Assembly (NCBI GenBank): GCA_018003015.1
Contig: JAGNEZ010000002.1
Location: 124,001-188,000, forward strand
Length of the DNA: 64,000 bases
Direction: 5' to 3'
Source: Phycisphaerae bacterium
Lineage (GTDB): Bacteria > Planctomycetota > Phycisphaerae > UBA1845 > PWPN01
Part shown: one piece after another, positions 34,619 through 38,872 of the stretch
Numbering within the stretch: the stretch's first letter is position 1
Layout of the letters: the number at the start of each line of letters is the position of its first letter
Position numbers and translations under genes: made by a program
The notes under the pieces: generated by a model
Databases searched by the model: none
The model's input: only the letters and a program-made list of their open reading frames with translations
Told to the model about the DNA's origin: nothing

Positions 34619-35773
34619 TCACACGGAACGGTCGAACTCGCCCAACTGAAGCGGGTAGCGGCCATGCTCCCTGACCAACTGAACCATGTAGTCATAACTG
34701 GCAAAATCCACGTTCTCCGGGATCGAGTGGTCCGACTGAATAACGTAACCGCCACCCTTGGCCGCGTTCAGCTTCGTGAGAACCTCACGGCGGATCCGGC
34801 ATGGGTCGTTGGTGGCCAGCACCCGGGCGTCGATATTGCCGTTGAATGACCACCGCTGCCCATACTTCCGCTTGAGCTCGACCACGTCCAGCCCGGCCTT
34901 GGCTTCAAGCGGGTTGTACGCGTCCACCCCGGCCTCAATCATGTCCTCGTAGATGCCCGATGCATTGCCGCAGCCATGGTAAATCGCTTTAAGCCCCGCG
35001 GAGTGGATCACGTCGCAGATCCGCTTGAGCTGGGGTTTGTACACCTCGCGCCAGTACCTCGGCGAGAAGAACATGCCCTTGACGTAGGCCACGTCACCCC
35101 AGATGTACAGGCCGGCGAGCCGCTCGCCCCCAACCGCGATCTGGGCCTCGGCGATGCCCACCACGAAGTCCCCAAGCCGCTCAATGAACCGGGCAATCCG
35201 GCCAGGCTCCTCCCCCATCTTCAGGAGCGCGTTCTCCGTTCCGATGATCCGCCAGAGCATCTCGTGGGGCTCGCAGACGCTCCCAAATACGCAGAAATCG
35301 CCGGCGTACGCGTCAATGCGGTCGATCCAGGCCGGCAGGCCCAGGTTCAGAGCATCACCCACCGCGTTGATCTGGTCGTCGATCGCCACGCTGAAGCGGC
35401 GCTCGTCCCGCGGGTCATCGAATCGCAGGGCGTCGATCTCCTCGAAGGTCTTCGTCTCAAAATCACGGTACGCAGGCATGGGGCAGCACGAGCGGAGCTC
35501 GATCGTCGCTCCAAAGCCGGTCTTGACCACCTTGCGGTCCTCGCCATCCTCCACGACGCGAACACCCTCGATGTGCGGGTCCATGTTGGGATTGATGACC
35601 ACCATGTCCAGGTCCCAGTATCGGTAAGGGTCGAAGTTGTGCGGCAGGTGGTTCTCGCGCTTGGCCCGGCGGATGAAGTTGGTCCAGAAAAACTCCCCAA
35701 TGGGCACCCGGTCGGGTTGCCGGCGACTGAGTGCGGTGATCACTCGCTGACTCTTGGCGTTGGCTTTGCCCAC
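34619..35773 (-). CDS. uroporphyrinogen decarboxylase-family protein 2
   Basis: 384 residues. It begins with SQRVITALSRRQPDRVPIGEFFW and holds YHGCGNASGIYEDMIEAG, the HxCG motif in the barrel. The later region (YGQRWSFNGNIDARVL, GGGYVIQSDHSIPENV) matches the same family. A second Cys after HxCG is not evident, unlike the paralogue at 31594. I chose GTG 35773, nine bases after GAGG; upstream ATGs have no ribosome site. It is transcribed divergently from a third paralogue at 35920. Confidence 0.8.
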   Translation of the reverse strand: MGKANAKSQRVITALSRRQPDRVPIGEFFWTNFIRRAKRENHLPHNFDPYRYWDLDMVVINPNMDPHIEGVRVVEDGEDRKVVKTGFGATIELRSCCPMPAYRDFETKTFEEIDALRFDDPRDERRFSVAIDDQINAVGDALNLGLPAWIDRIDAYAGDFCVFGSVCEPHEMLWRIIGTENALLKMGEEPGRIARFIERLGDFVVGIAEAQIAVGGERLAGLYIWGDVAYVKGMFFSPRYWREVYKPQLKRICDVIHSAGLKAIYHGCGNASGIYEDMIEAGVDAYNPLEAKAGLDVVELKRKYGQRWSFNGNIDARVLATNDPCRIRREVLTKLNAAKGGGYVIQSDHSIPENVDFASYDYMVQLVREHGRYPLQLGEFDRSV

Positions 35774-35863
35774 GGAAGAAATCCTCGCTGCAAGACCTGA
35801 TCTCCTGATGCGGAACACGGTAGTCATGACCACGCGAGCCCGCAAGGGGGCAGTCCCGGCCGG

Positions 35864-35881
35864 CCACGGCCGTGGTATACT
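35864..35881 (+). promoter_or_regulatory. palindrome abutting a -10-like box before UroD-like gene 3
   Basis: CCACGGCCGTGG (35864-35875) is a perfect 12-base palindrome directly followed by TATACT (35876-35881). No good -35 box is present, which suggests an activator or repressor site. It lies in the 146-base gap between two divergent UroD-like genes. Confidence 0.35.
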
Positions 35882-35919
35882 CGAGGCCGGCGCGACCCGG
35901 CCTTTCAAGGAGAACCACG

Positions 35920-37041
35920 ATGACCTCCAAGGAACGAATGATGCGAGCCCTGGCGCGTGAGAAGCCCGACCGCCTTCCCGTCACCGTTCATCAGTGGCAG
36001 CCCTATCACCTGAACACCTATATGGACGGGATAGACGCCCTGGCCGCTCTCCGGGCGACCGGCATGGACGCCGCCATTCAGTACTTCGAGACCATGGGCC
36101 AGTTCTGGGTGCCCGAGTCCACCGCAACCGCCGGTGTGCCCAACTGGCGCGACGAGGCGACAGTCGTCGACGCTGATCCCCTCCACTGCGTGGTTCACCA
36201 TACCATCGCCACGCCCGGCGGCCGGCTTTCCTACAAGACCGAGGGCAACCTGATCACGACCTGGATCACCGAGTACCTCATCAAACACCCGGAGGACGTG
36301 GATCTGATCCAACGCTACATGCCCATCGCCCGTCTGGATCGTCAGAAAGTGGCGGCCGCCTACGACGCCGTCGGTGACGCCGGCGTCCTTCGAGGCTTCG
36401 TCTGGGGTGACCAGGCCGGCTGCTGGCAGCACGCGTGCTGCCTCATGGATGTGCAAGAACTCATTTTCGCCGCCCACGACGACCCCCCTTGGGTCCATCG
36501 CCTGATGAGCGTCCTCCTCGAAAAGAAGCTCCGATTCATCGAGGAATCGCTCCGCGGGGCTAGGTTCGATCTCATCGAGACCGGCGGCGGGGCAGGCAGC
36601 GACACCGTTATTTCCCCGGCCATGCATCGCGAGTTCTGCCTGCCGTACGACCGGCGCATGCATCAGGCCCTGCACGACGCCGGTCATCGGGTGAGCTACC
36701 ACACCTGCGGCGGGATGATGCACATTCTCGACCAGATCGTGGCCAACGGGACCGATGCCTCCGAGACGCTCTCACCGCCTGGCGTCGGCGGAAACATCTC
36801 CGATCCCGGCAAGGTCCGGCAAGCCTTCGCCGGCAAGGTCGCGATGATCGGCGGCATGGATCAGTTCAACGTCCTGACCCGCGGCACGGCCAACCAGATC
36901 CGGGCCGAGGTCCGGCGTCTCTTCGAGGGCTTCGGCCGCGACGGCGGCTACATCCTCTCCGTGGCCGACCATTTCTTCGAAACACCGGTCGAGAACCTGC
37001 GGGTCTACTCCCAAGCCGCTCGAGAATGCGCGTACGACTAA
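35920..37041 (+). CDS. uroporphyrinogen decarboxylase-family protein 3
   Basis: 373 residues. It begins TSKERMMRALAREKPDRLPV and contains SYHTCGGMMHILDQI (HxCG), ETGGGAGSDTVISPAMH and GGMDQFNVLTRGT. The fold and motifs match the family, but substrate residues of true HemE cannot be matched with confidence. ATG 35920 follows AAGGAG by about seven bases. It diverges from paralogue 2, so the pair may share control from the gap between them. Confidence 0.82.
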   Translation: MTSKERMMRALAREKPDRLPVTVHQWQPYHLNTYMDGIDALAALRATGMDAAIQYFETMGQFWVPESTATAGVPNWRDEATVVDADPLHCVVHHTIATPGGRLSYKTEGNLITTWITEYLIKHPEDVDLIQRYMPIARLDRQKVAAAYDAVGDAGVLRGFVWGDQAGCWQHACCLMDVQELIFAAHDDPPWVHRLMSVLLEKKLRFIEESLRGARFDLIETGGGAGSDTVISPAMHREFCLPYDRRMHQALHDAGHRVSYHTCGGMMHILDQIVANGTDASETLSPPGVGGNISDPGKVRQAFAGKVAMIGGMDQFNVLTRGTANQIRAEVRRLFEGFGRDGGYILSVADHFFETPVENLRVYSQAARECAYD

Positions 37042-37192
37042 CGGCGAAACCTCAGAGACGGAGTGGCGCGACGCAACCGTATCGAGATCCTCCTCCCTCG
37101 ATCGGCCAGCCCACCCTTTCTCGACAAGGGAGTCGACCGCGACGACATGGCCCGGCCGACTCAGTGCCGGACACAAGGGCGGTCTCCTGGGT

Positions 37193-37324
37193 GTGGCCGC
37201 CCTGGTCGCCTTGCTCTATACCGGGGTCATCTTCAATCACGAGGCGTGGATCCACCGCTTTGGGCACAACGAAACCGCTCTGGCGATCGAAAAACGCCTG
37301 CATCGGGCGGGGCAGACGATGTGA
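37193..37324 (+). CDS. possible small membrane protein lacking a normal start
   Basis: The frame that ends at 37324 reads as a plausible membrane protein. From about 37166 it has Ala-Gly-His-Lys-Gly-Gly-Leu-Leu-Gly, then a hydrophobic helix (VAALVALLYTGVIF), then NHEAWIHRFGHNETALAIEK and a short tail. No ATG, GTG or TTG occurs in frame between the previous gene's stop and GTG 37193, which lies inside the helix. Either a weak GTG or CTG start is used or the N-terminus has been lost. The family is not recognised. Confidence 0.3.
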   Translation: MAALVALLYTGVIFNHEAWIHRFGHNETALAIEKRLHRAGQTM

Positions 37325-37411
37325 TCCTGCCGGCTCAGGCAGACTGATCGTGGCGACGGAACATCATGTAGACAATGAGATTAGGAACGCCTCGGCTTCG
37401 ATCCAGGACCA

Positions 37412-37441
37412 TTGGCGGCAAACAAACTCACAGGGTATAAT
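37412..37441 (+). promoter_or_regulatory. sigma70-type promoter for the lysozyme-like gene
   Basis: TTGGCG (37412-37417) is followed after 18 bases by a perfect TATAAT (37436-37441). The start point near 37448 gives a leader of about 100 bases. Confidence 0.6.
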
Positions 37442-37547
37442 CCCCTGCACTACTCCGAGAGTCCTCGGATGCCGCCAAGGAAGCACGGATGCTGACTGGA
37501 GCCGCGAAGGTGCGAAATGGTGAGGGATCGACGAGAGGTTCCCAACA

Positions 37548-37952
37548 ATGCGCCCCGCATGGCTGCTTTCACTGTCCGCCTTCTGCTTCGGTCTCTGCTC
37601 CCTGACCGCGACCGCCGACCTGCGCTCATTCCTCGACGCCGTTGCCCAGGTCGAAACCGGAGGCTCCGCGAATCCCGCCTTCGCCCGCGGCGACAGCGGC
37701 CGGTCGCTGGGACCCTATCAGATCAGCTGGAAGTACTGGAAGGATAGCGGGGTGAAAGGCAGCTACCGTTGGGTCACGAACAAGGCCTACGCCGAACAGG
37801 TGATGCTCGCCTACTGGCGGAAACACTGCCCCCAGGCCCTTGCCCGTCGGGATTACAGGACCCTGGCCCGAATCCACAACGGTGGCCCGAACGGCACTCG
37901 CGAGCAGAAAACCTGCGCTTACTGGCAACGCGTGCGCCAAGCCATGCGCTAG
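37548..37952 (+). CDS. i-type lysozyme-like (destabilase family) secreted protein
   Basis: 134 residues. A signal peptide spans about 1-23. The mature part lines up with animal i-type lysozymes: VETGG with Glu36 where those have the catalytic Glu, RGDSGRSLGPYQI with Asp49 in the catalytic Asp position and the GPYQI strand, a YW pair, then ARIHNGGPNG and YWQRVRQAM at the end. Most of the disulfide cysteines of the animal enzymes are missing. It probably cuts peptidoglycan outside the cytoplasm, either the cell's own wall or that of prey. Transcribed from its own promoter; a pseudouridine synthase gene follows after 38 bases. Confidence 0.72.
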   Translation: MRPAWLLSLSAFCFGLCSLTATADLRSFLDAVAQVETGGSANPAFARGDSGRSLGPYQISWKYWKDSGVKGSYRWVTNKAYAEQVMLAYWRKHCPQALARRDYRTLARIHNGGPNGTREQKTCAYWQRVRQAMR

Positions 37953-37990
37953 CCAATGCAATCAACCTCGATTTGTGGTACAAGCTCGCC

Positions 37991-38872
37991 ATGGCTCTTG
38001 AACGCTTGCAGAAGGTCCTCGCCACCGCCGGTCTCGCTTCGCGCCGCGAGTGCGAGGAGATGATCCTCGACGGCCGGGTCGCAGTGAACGGCAAGCAGGT
38101 CTCCACCCTGCCGGCGCTCGCCGATCCCCAGTCCGATCGAATCACCGTGGACGGACAGCTACTTCGCGCCCCTCGCAAGGTCTACTTCATGCTCCATAAA
38201 CCCAAGGGCGTGCACTGCACAAACGATGATCCGCAGGGCCGAACTCGGGCGATCGATTTGCTCCCCCGCATCCCCGAACGCGTGTTCCCCGTCGGCCGGC
38301 TCGACGCAGACAGCACCGGCCTGCTGCTCCTGACCAACGACGGCGAATTGGCCCAGCGAATGACGCATCCGCGATTCGGCGTGCCCAAGACCTACCGCAT
38401 CCATCTGCCCGGTCTCGTGGGCAACAATGAGATCGCCCGCTTGCTGAAAGGCGTCTGGCTCCACGAAGGCAAGGCCCATGTCTCCGAGGCGAGCATCGTT
38501 CACGCCGGACGCGACGGCAGCATGATCGAAGTCACGCTTCGCGAGGGACGTAACCGCGAGATTCGCCGGGTGATGGCCAAACTGGGCTTCAAGGTCCGCA
38601 AGCTGGTCCGAATTCGCATCGGGCCACTGTCGCTGAGCGGCCTGCCAATCGGTGCATCCCGGCCGCTGAGCCCCGACGAGGTCAAATCGCTGCGCCACTA
38701 CCGACCGCCAGCACCCAGGAAGAAGCCCGCGGCCGAAACGGGGAATTCGAAGATGGAAAAAAGTGTTAAAAAGAGCACGGAGCGCAAGACCACGCCCGCG
38801 GCTCAACCCGACAGGAATACCCGCCGCATCGCCGCCGCCCCCGACGGGACCACGATCCTTCGCCGTCGGTGA
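37991..38872 (+). CDS. RsuA/RluB-family pseudouridine synthase
   Basis: 293 residues. An S4 RNA-binding domain (RLQKVLATAGLASRRECEEMI, 5-25) precedes the synthase domain with the catalytic Asp in VGRLDADSTGLLLLTNDG, and KTYRIHL and GRNREIRRVM motifs. It modifies uridine in ribosomal RNA. The last 60 residues form a Lys/Arg-rich tail (KKPAAETGNSKMEKSVKK) that is common in RluB. It could be RluB, RluE/F or RsuA. ATG 37991 matches the usual N-terminus; longer frames lie in the preceding gene. Confidence 0.9.
   Translation: MALERLQKVLATAGLASRRECEEMILDGRVAVNGKQVSTLPALADPQSDRITVDGQLLRAPRKVYFMLHKPKGVHCTNDDPQGRTRAIDLLPRIPERVFPVGRLDADSTGLLLLTNDGELAQRMTHPRFGVPKTYRIHLPGLVGNNEIARLLKGVWLHEGKAHVSEASIVHAGRDGSMIEVTLREGRNREIRRVMAKLGFKVRKLVRIRIGPLSLSGLPIGASRPLSPDEVKSLRHYRPPAPRKKPAAETGNSKMEKSVKKSTERKTTPAAQPDRNTRRIAAAPDGTTILRRR

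Follow-up and report, generated by a model that had tools for sequence, protein, structure and literature searches.

An i-type lysozyme homologue on the chromosome of a Phycisphaerae bacterium, and its relatives in other bacteria and phages

The lysozyme gene and its surroundings

The gene described here lies in a 64-kb window (the whole stretch of DNA analysed, 64,000 nucleotides), which belongs to a 6.86-Mb assembly of 144 contigs that is 98.7% complete. Its parts, and the putative control elements preceding it, are collected in Table 1.

Table 1. Features of the lysozyme gene and of the region upstream (positions in the window)
Feature	Position	Strand	Size and basis
Promoter-like TTGGCG-18-TATAAT	37412..37441	+	1 found versus 0.1 expected in 37000-38100
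Putative transcribed leader	37442..37547	+	about 105 bases; SD-like GAGAGG at 37533-37538, by eye
i-type lysozyme (PF05497) homologue, CDS including stop	37548..37952	+	134 aa; profile, PDB and fold matches
Likely Sec signal peptide, residues 1-23	37548..37616	+	hydrophobic core, A-T-A before D24; cleavage site by eye
Mature i-type lysozyme domain, residues 24-134	37617..37949	+	model residues 23-134 align with i-type lysozymes
Glu36 codon, predicted general acid	37653..37655	+	conservation; alignment to 2dqa and leech destabilase
Asp49 codon, predicted second catalytic residue	37692..37694	+	conservation; alignment to 2dqa and leech destabilase
His110-Asn-Gly-Gly signature	37875..37886	+	78/78 aligned rows

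The hydropathy of the putative signal peptide peaks at 2.13, and the same residues form a low-confidence stretch of the AlphaFold2 model, while the mature domain has a calculated pI of 10.2. Both promoter-like hexamers are conserved in the alignment with the sister species (locus L010), and the SD-like motif, as judged by eye, is located 9 bases upstream of the ATG. Among 13 genomes of the family, the leader is present in just the two of the genus. The promoter-like site and leader together (37412-37547) share 93.4% identity over 136 bases with the sister species in a BLAST comparison. A riboswitch in this leader was considered and rejected: no Rfam family reached its gathering score anywhere in the window, the leader itself gave three matches at chance level, and its folding energy is ordinary (z -0.42). 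Downstream, at 37991, begins a gene for a pseudouridine synthase (Pfam domains S4 and PseudoU_synth_2), and since only 38 bases separate it from the lysozyme stop codon, the two genes may be cotranscribed.

The genes around the lysozyme (34.6 to 42.6 kb) are conserved in the sister species. Four of them, tested against Pfam, correspond to URO-D, the pseudouridine synthase, the beta-lactamase family and, below the cut-off, a xylose-isomerase-like TIM barrel; two more frames, one URO-D-like and one QueC-like, were recognised by eye. The two URO-D-like frames, 34619-35908 (-) and 35872-37041 (+), lie beside the lysozyme gene on opposite strands with a 37-base overlap; the latter is the Pfam-tested one, and both have further distant copies in L010. 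A prophage setting was rejected, as the neighbours examined are chromosomal genes of ordinary kinds, retained by the sister species, and none next to the lysozyme gene was recognised as a phage gene. Secretion, toxin or immunity genes were likewise absent from the few neighbours examined. When six neighbours (one compared in the wrong frame) were searched for beside the 44 genome loci described below, several of which are short, a match was found in L010 alone, which indicates movement or rearrangement. The comparison with L010 gives dS and dN values of 0.154 and 0.035 for the whole gene, and of 0.142 and 0.028 for the mature part; the gene is under purifying selection, with a dN/dS of about 0.23.

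Family membership and predicted fold

An earlier note on this DNA had described the product as a bacterial relative of the animal i-type lysozymes, and had proposed a PF05497 search and a structure prediction as checks. Both were run, and they bear out the relationship; neither of the two outcomes named as contrary to it, a missing PF05497 match and the fold of a different lysozyme class, was obtained. In a Pfam search, the Destabilase profile PF05497 matches residues 29-131 with an E-value of 4.1e-8 and a score of 33.9 bits, above the curated cut-off of 26.2. Just one other family is matched, PF11860 Muramidase, at 15.4 bits and thus below its cut-off of 22.3, and the SLT profile (PF01464) gave no match at a maximum E-value of 10. 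A phmmer search of the PDB returned leech destabilase 8bbu (2.6e-12), Tapes 2dqa (6.2e-9) and the Meretrix entries 3ab6 (1.2e-7) and 4pj2 (1.4e-7), and the next match after these four i-type sequences is unrelated (0.55). With a profile built from a 78-row microbial alignment, comprising the lysozyme protein and 77 relatives (44 genome and 33 viral representatives), the same four sequences were retrieved at 3.4e-22 to 3.5e-18, followed by c-type lysozymes at 0.094 and weaker.

The AlphaFold2 model has a mean pLDDT of 87.9, with ten-residue blocks of 89 to 99 from residue 31 onward. Searched with Foldseek, it retrieves i-type lysozymes at ranks 1 to 6, and with VIA-align 2 at ranks 1 to 5, the latter with Z scores of 14.4-14.9 and an rmsd of 2.1-2.8 over 105-110 residues. 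GH23 lytic transglycosylases (SLT, PF01464) are the next family in VIA-align 2, at a Z of 10.7 and lower; they share a related lysozyme-superfamily fold, but score lower by about 4, their SLT profile does not match, and the lysozyme protein has a second catalytic Asp. With the animal i-type lysozymes (8bbu/8bbw, Tapes japonica 2dqa, Meretrix lusoria 3ab6/4pj2), the protein has in common the profile, the predicted fold, the Glu and Asp pair, and the G-P/Y-Y/F-Q-I and HNGGP signatures. It differs from them in sequence, with 24-34% identity, in its bacterial setting and in its likely bacterial export signal.

For the protein itself, NCBIfam gave no match and PHROGs weak ones alone (best 0.014); eight further family members also gave weak PHROGs matches, the best (0.0018) being to an endolysin family. 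In Pfam, seven of these eight score above the threshold for PF05497, one narrowly, at 26.9 bits, and L048, at 18.1, fails to reach it. Among the distant relatives, a protein from a Clostridia MAG (L051) scores above both the Destabilase and the SLT cut-off in Pfam, and possibly represents a link between the two families.

Active site and cysteines

The residues highlighted in the earlier note, namely, Glu36, Asp49, GPYQI (55-59) and HNGGPNG (110-116), are found at these places, and the catalytic pair aligns with that of destabilase-type lysozymes. More precisely, Glu36 and Asp49 fall on the Glu and Asp of 2dqa in the phmmer alignment, and on the leech destabilase pair in the profile alignment. 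In the 78-row alignment, 75 rows carry Glu at the position of Glu36 and the other 3 are gapped; at that of Asp49, Asp occurs in 72 rows, with 3 gapped and 3 bearing a different residue. The six rows that lack an Asp49 equivalent (L043, L048, L049, L050, L052 and L053) are all distant genome rows. The His110-Asn-Gly-Gly signature is invariant.

Leech destabilase has also been linked to isopeptidase activity: the paper on this enzyme (PMC10126035) names Glu34 and Asp46 for the muramidase reaction and proposes Ser51 and His112 for the isopeptidase one. In the profile alignment, Ser53 of the lysozyme protein is in register with leech Ser51, and His110 of the HNGG motif with a conserved leech His. 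The position matching Ser51 is occupied by Ser in 35 of the 78 rows and by Ala in 40, and an isopeptidase action of the Ser51 type is therefore no general feature of the microbial family.

The same note had pointed out that the disulfide cysteines of the animal enzymes are nearly all missing, an observation that can be extended to the microbial group sampled. The protein has four Cys, two in the putative signal peptide and two in the mature part (C94 and C123), and the sister species has a Ser at C123. Domain Cys counts range from 0 to 4 in the 44 genome representatives and from 0 to 3 in the 33 viral ones, versus 9, 11 and 12 in three animal fragments. With its two mature Cys, the lysozyme protein, a member of the PF05497 family, is thus placed outside the disulfide-rich animal subgroup.

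Occurrence in bacterial genomes

The lysozyme gene is chromosomal and present in single copy: PF05497 has one match in the source genome, and none in 14 control genomes. The same profile identified 7 of 61 relatives and 3 of 294 genomes of the phylum, the source genome included in both counts. With profile A2, 7 of the 13 genomes of the family, some of which are incomplete, were found to carry the gene, and the phylum sample of 294 genomes, where up to 16 first-look candidates were scored per genome, yielded 4 including the source, one of them covering 49 positions only. A search of PLSDB plasmids gave no match.

A scan of GTDB genome contigs returned 44 loci from 58 candidates. By title, 31 belong to Planctomycetota (including Phycisphaerae and Planctomycetia), 6 to Verrucomicrobiota and 1 to Kiritimatiellae, i.e., 38 of the 44; the remainder are titled Clostridia (1), Betaproteobacteria (1) or simply bacterium (4). 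Since all 44 titles refer to metagenome bins (42 MAGs and 2 bins), single contigs may be misbinned; the Betaproteobacteria row (L032) is placed among viral rows in the tree. The 70 frame residues that precede the domain include a hydrophobic 12-mer in 38 of the 44 genome and 28 of the 33 viral representatives, the frames being read from stop to stop, so that some of these stretches may precede the true start. In a simple hydropathy test, the viral copies L060, L067, L068, L083 and L089 show no hydrophobic segment before the domain.

Relatives in phages and viral contigs

Scanning of the IMG/VR viral contigs confirmed at least 583 stretches, from 600 candidates, that encode relatives of the lysozyme protein. 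The best 80 of these, with 42-54% identity to it in the best segment, were kept, and 33 remained after removal of near-duplicates at 85%. Like the planctomycete protein, these 33 are Cys-poor; in contrast to its gene, theirs lie among phage genes in the loci sampled. The top match in BFVD is a destabilase-like protein (UniProt A0A6J5P067), entitled 'Destabilase [uncultured Caudovirales phage]', which shares the predicted fold at 37% identity.

In 20 viral loci, 66 of the 119 long ORFs listed were scanned. The matches include terminase large subunit, portal, head-tail adaptor, RNA polymerase, primase/helicase, DNA polymerase and integrase families. The lysozyme of L083 (6001-6312) is located between primase/helicase and DNA polymerase genes, and this locus reads as a T7-like phage, with RNA polymerase, a gp2.5-like protein, primase/helicase, DNA polymerase and exonuclease. 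Lysis genes were searched for after ten T7-like-looking loci had been set aside: the other 23 loci contain 465 ORFs, of which 114 are close and on the same strand, and among the 87 of these scanned, no holin or spanin was found in the families listed for the matches (25 of 30 matched families). The terminase small subunit was matched by at least two of these short neighbours.

Among the phages of INPHARED, the lysozyme protein found no match, and two viral relatives used as queries both retrieved the same 7 Cellulophaga phage records. The proteins of Cellulophaga phages Calle_1 (gene 55) and phi38:1 (gp032) share 30.5-33.6% identity with these two queries but, unlike them, have no match to the lysozyme protein itself. 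The Calle_1 record calls the product 'lysozyme (Destabilise-like protein)', while in Pfam, at E-values up to 1, the protein matches SLT alone, at 19.4 bits and below the cut-off of 21.3. In PHROGs v4, where no strong family was obtained for any of ten proteins tested, it matches a tape-measure family (2.5e-5, 40 residues). The i-type lysozyme of phages may serve as an endolysin; as the report on phage Calle names an amidase as its potential endolysin (PMC8776804), this should not be assumed of every phage copy.

Phylogeny and exchange between phages and hosts

The tree, rooted at the midpoint, comprises 82 rows and 121 columns, and 21 of its 79 inner branches were drawn open. On it, the virus label must change 10 times, at least three of these changes being required by well-supported branches. 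Placing the 33 viral rows in one clade is rejected with a p-AU of 3e-7, and with 3e-5 when L131 and L132 are left out, a set chosen after the tree had been seen. Because a single viral clade is rejected, copies appear to have crossed between phages and hosts; the intermixing of phage and host copies in this tree supports exchange between the two kinds of lineages.

The lysozyme row and the sister species L010 are joined with full support (100/100). Measured along the branches, its closest rows are L010 followed by L011-L014, from the same family, the grouping of L011 with the lysozyme-L010 pair being weak (93/28). Elsewhere, 21 genome rows, most of them titled Planctomycetota, group in a clade (100/99) whose neighbours are conserved, with an EamA transporter present at 13 loci and a glycosyltransferase of family 9 at 14 among them. 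Together with the intermixed tree, this argues for stable inheritance of the host copies in places, with phage exchange operating over a longer scale. As a separate observation, in 14 loci (L021, L023, L026, L027, L028, L029, L034, L035, L036, L038, L041, L044, L045 and L047) with an EamA transporter and/or family 9 glycosyltransferase neighbourhood, the i-type domain follows a hydrophobic segment, which is perhaps membrane-anchoring.

The animals form one branch of unsure place, and the branch parting the 72 phage and bacterial rows from them has 91/83. The animals are represented by three fragments of odd composition, and the deep forks are weakly supported at 121 columns.

Proposed function and alternatives

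We regard it as probable, if narrowly so, that this gene encodes a Sec-exported i-type lysozyme acting as a periplasmic muramidase on the cell's own wall. The mature protein would be exported by Sec into the periplasm, where it would most likely hydrolyse the MurNAc-GlcNAc beta-1,4 bond of peptidoglycan; Glu36 would be the proton donor and Asp49 the second carboxylate, and the predicted substrate is the wall of the cell itself. The source genome encodes a GT51 peptidoglycan glycosyltransferase, and no SLT, YceG/MltG or SLT_2 match was detected in it with profiles that matched 8, 8 and 3 of the 14 control genomes, respectively; with GT51 present and these three families undetected, an exported own-wall muramidase is the simplest reading. 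None of the 13 family genomes was matched by SLT (PF01464), whereas 7 of them carry the lysozyme gene, which is therefore no universal replacement of the lytic transglycosylases, nor the sole solution. The earlier note had left the choice between a self-wall enzyme and a weapon against neighbours, and the evidence leans to the former. The latter, in which the enzyme would be released at neighbouring bacteria as a weapon or for digestion, we judge improbable. The likely export signal, the high pI and the patchy distribution speak for it, the animal relatives are used as weapons or digestive enzymes, and the enzyme may be released outside the cell. A plain signal peptide, however, directs a protein to the periplasm, the few neighbours examined include no secretion, toxin or immunity gene, and the PliI inhibitor family is matched elsewhere in the genome just partially (E 2.6e-4, 23 bits versus a cut-off of 27), over positions 57-86 of 123 and in a frame of 1290 residues.

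Somewhat less improbable, but still unlikely in our opinion, is that a phage endolysin gene entered the lineage and was retained, whether to lyse a fraction of the population, to provide defence or to work as a recruited enzyme of the wall. The abundance of viral-contig relatives among phage genes in the loci sampled, the rejection of a single viral clade, and the absence of the lysozyme-gene neighbours from beside the other 43 genome loci are in line with such a capture. On the other hand, the rows nearest to the gene come from its own family (with the weak support noted for L011), no phage gene was recognised adjoining it, the 21-row genome clade with its conserved neighbours documents long residence in hosts, and the deep forks are weakly supported. 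Two further proposals concern the chemistry and appear very improbable. For a peptidase or isopeptidase in place of a glycosidase, one can invoke Ser53 and His110, in register with the residues proposed for leech; yet the Ser position is shared between Ser and Ala across the family while the glycosidase pair is near-invariant, and the same paper reaches the conclusion that two animal branches gained isopeptidase activity independently (PMC10126035), which also counts against this proposal. From these alignments, an isopeptidase role of the lysozyme protein is not favoured. A lytic transglycosylase with GH23-like chemistry in an i-type fold has in its favour that GH23 domains are the next structural neighbours and that the distant relative L051 exceeds the cut-offs of both families. 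Against it, Asp49 is present and conserved, and SLT does not match the protein. To our knowledge, typical GH23 enzymes have no counterpart of Asp49.

Significance

Lysozymes of the i-type are usually treated as immune and digestive enzymes of invertebrates. Bacterial and viral PF05497 members have been on record before: the leech destabilase paper mentions metagenomic sequences of both kinds, which formed a branch that was left out of the published tree (PMC10126035), and the PhaLP 2.0 report has one mention of 'destabilase', among miscellaneous domains in predicted lysins (PMC13237592). No study devoted to bacterial or phage members was found among the top-listed results of searches in open-licence PMC papers. 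The interest of the present data resides in the abundance of the family in phages and in the origin of the animal enzyme. Given the planctomycete gene and its relatives in related bacteria and uncultivated viruses, a supposedly animal lysozyme type is also a little-studied microbial enzyme. According to another report, early-branching animals are largely without i-type lysozymes (PMC12855814). We can tentatively propose, as an idea more doubtful than likely, that the i-type lysozyme is an old microbial wall enzyme and a large, little-recognised class of phage lysins, exchanged with planctomycetes and Verrucomicrobiota, and that animals did not invent it but acquired it from a microbial source of this kind and then added disulfides.

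The Cys-poor, probably exported versions from planctomycetes and phages provide a sequence set for testing the origin of the i-type, and their viral members may represent a little-studied class of phage lysins. For the bacterium itself, the gene supplies a candidate glycan-cleaving wall enzyme in a genome where three common families of lytic transglycosylases were not detected.
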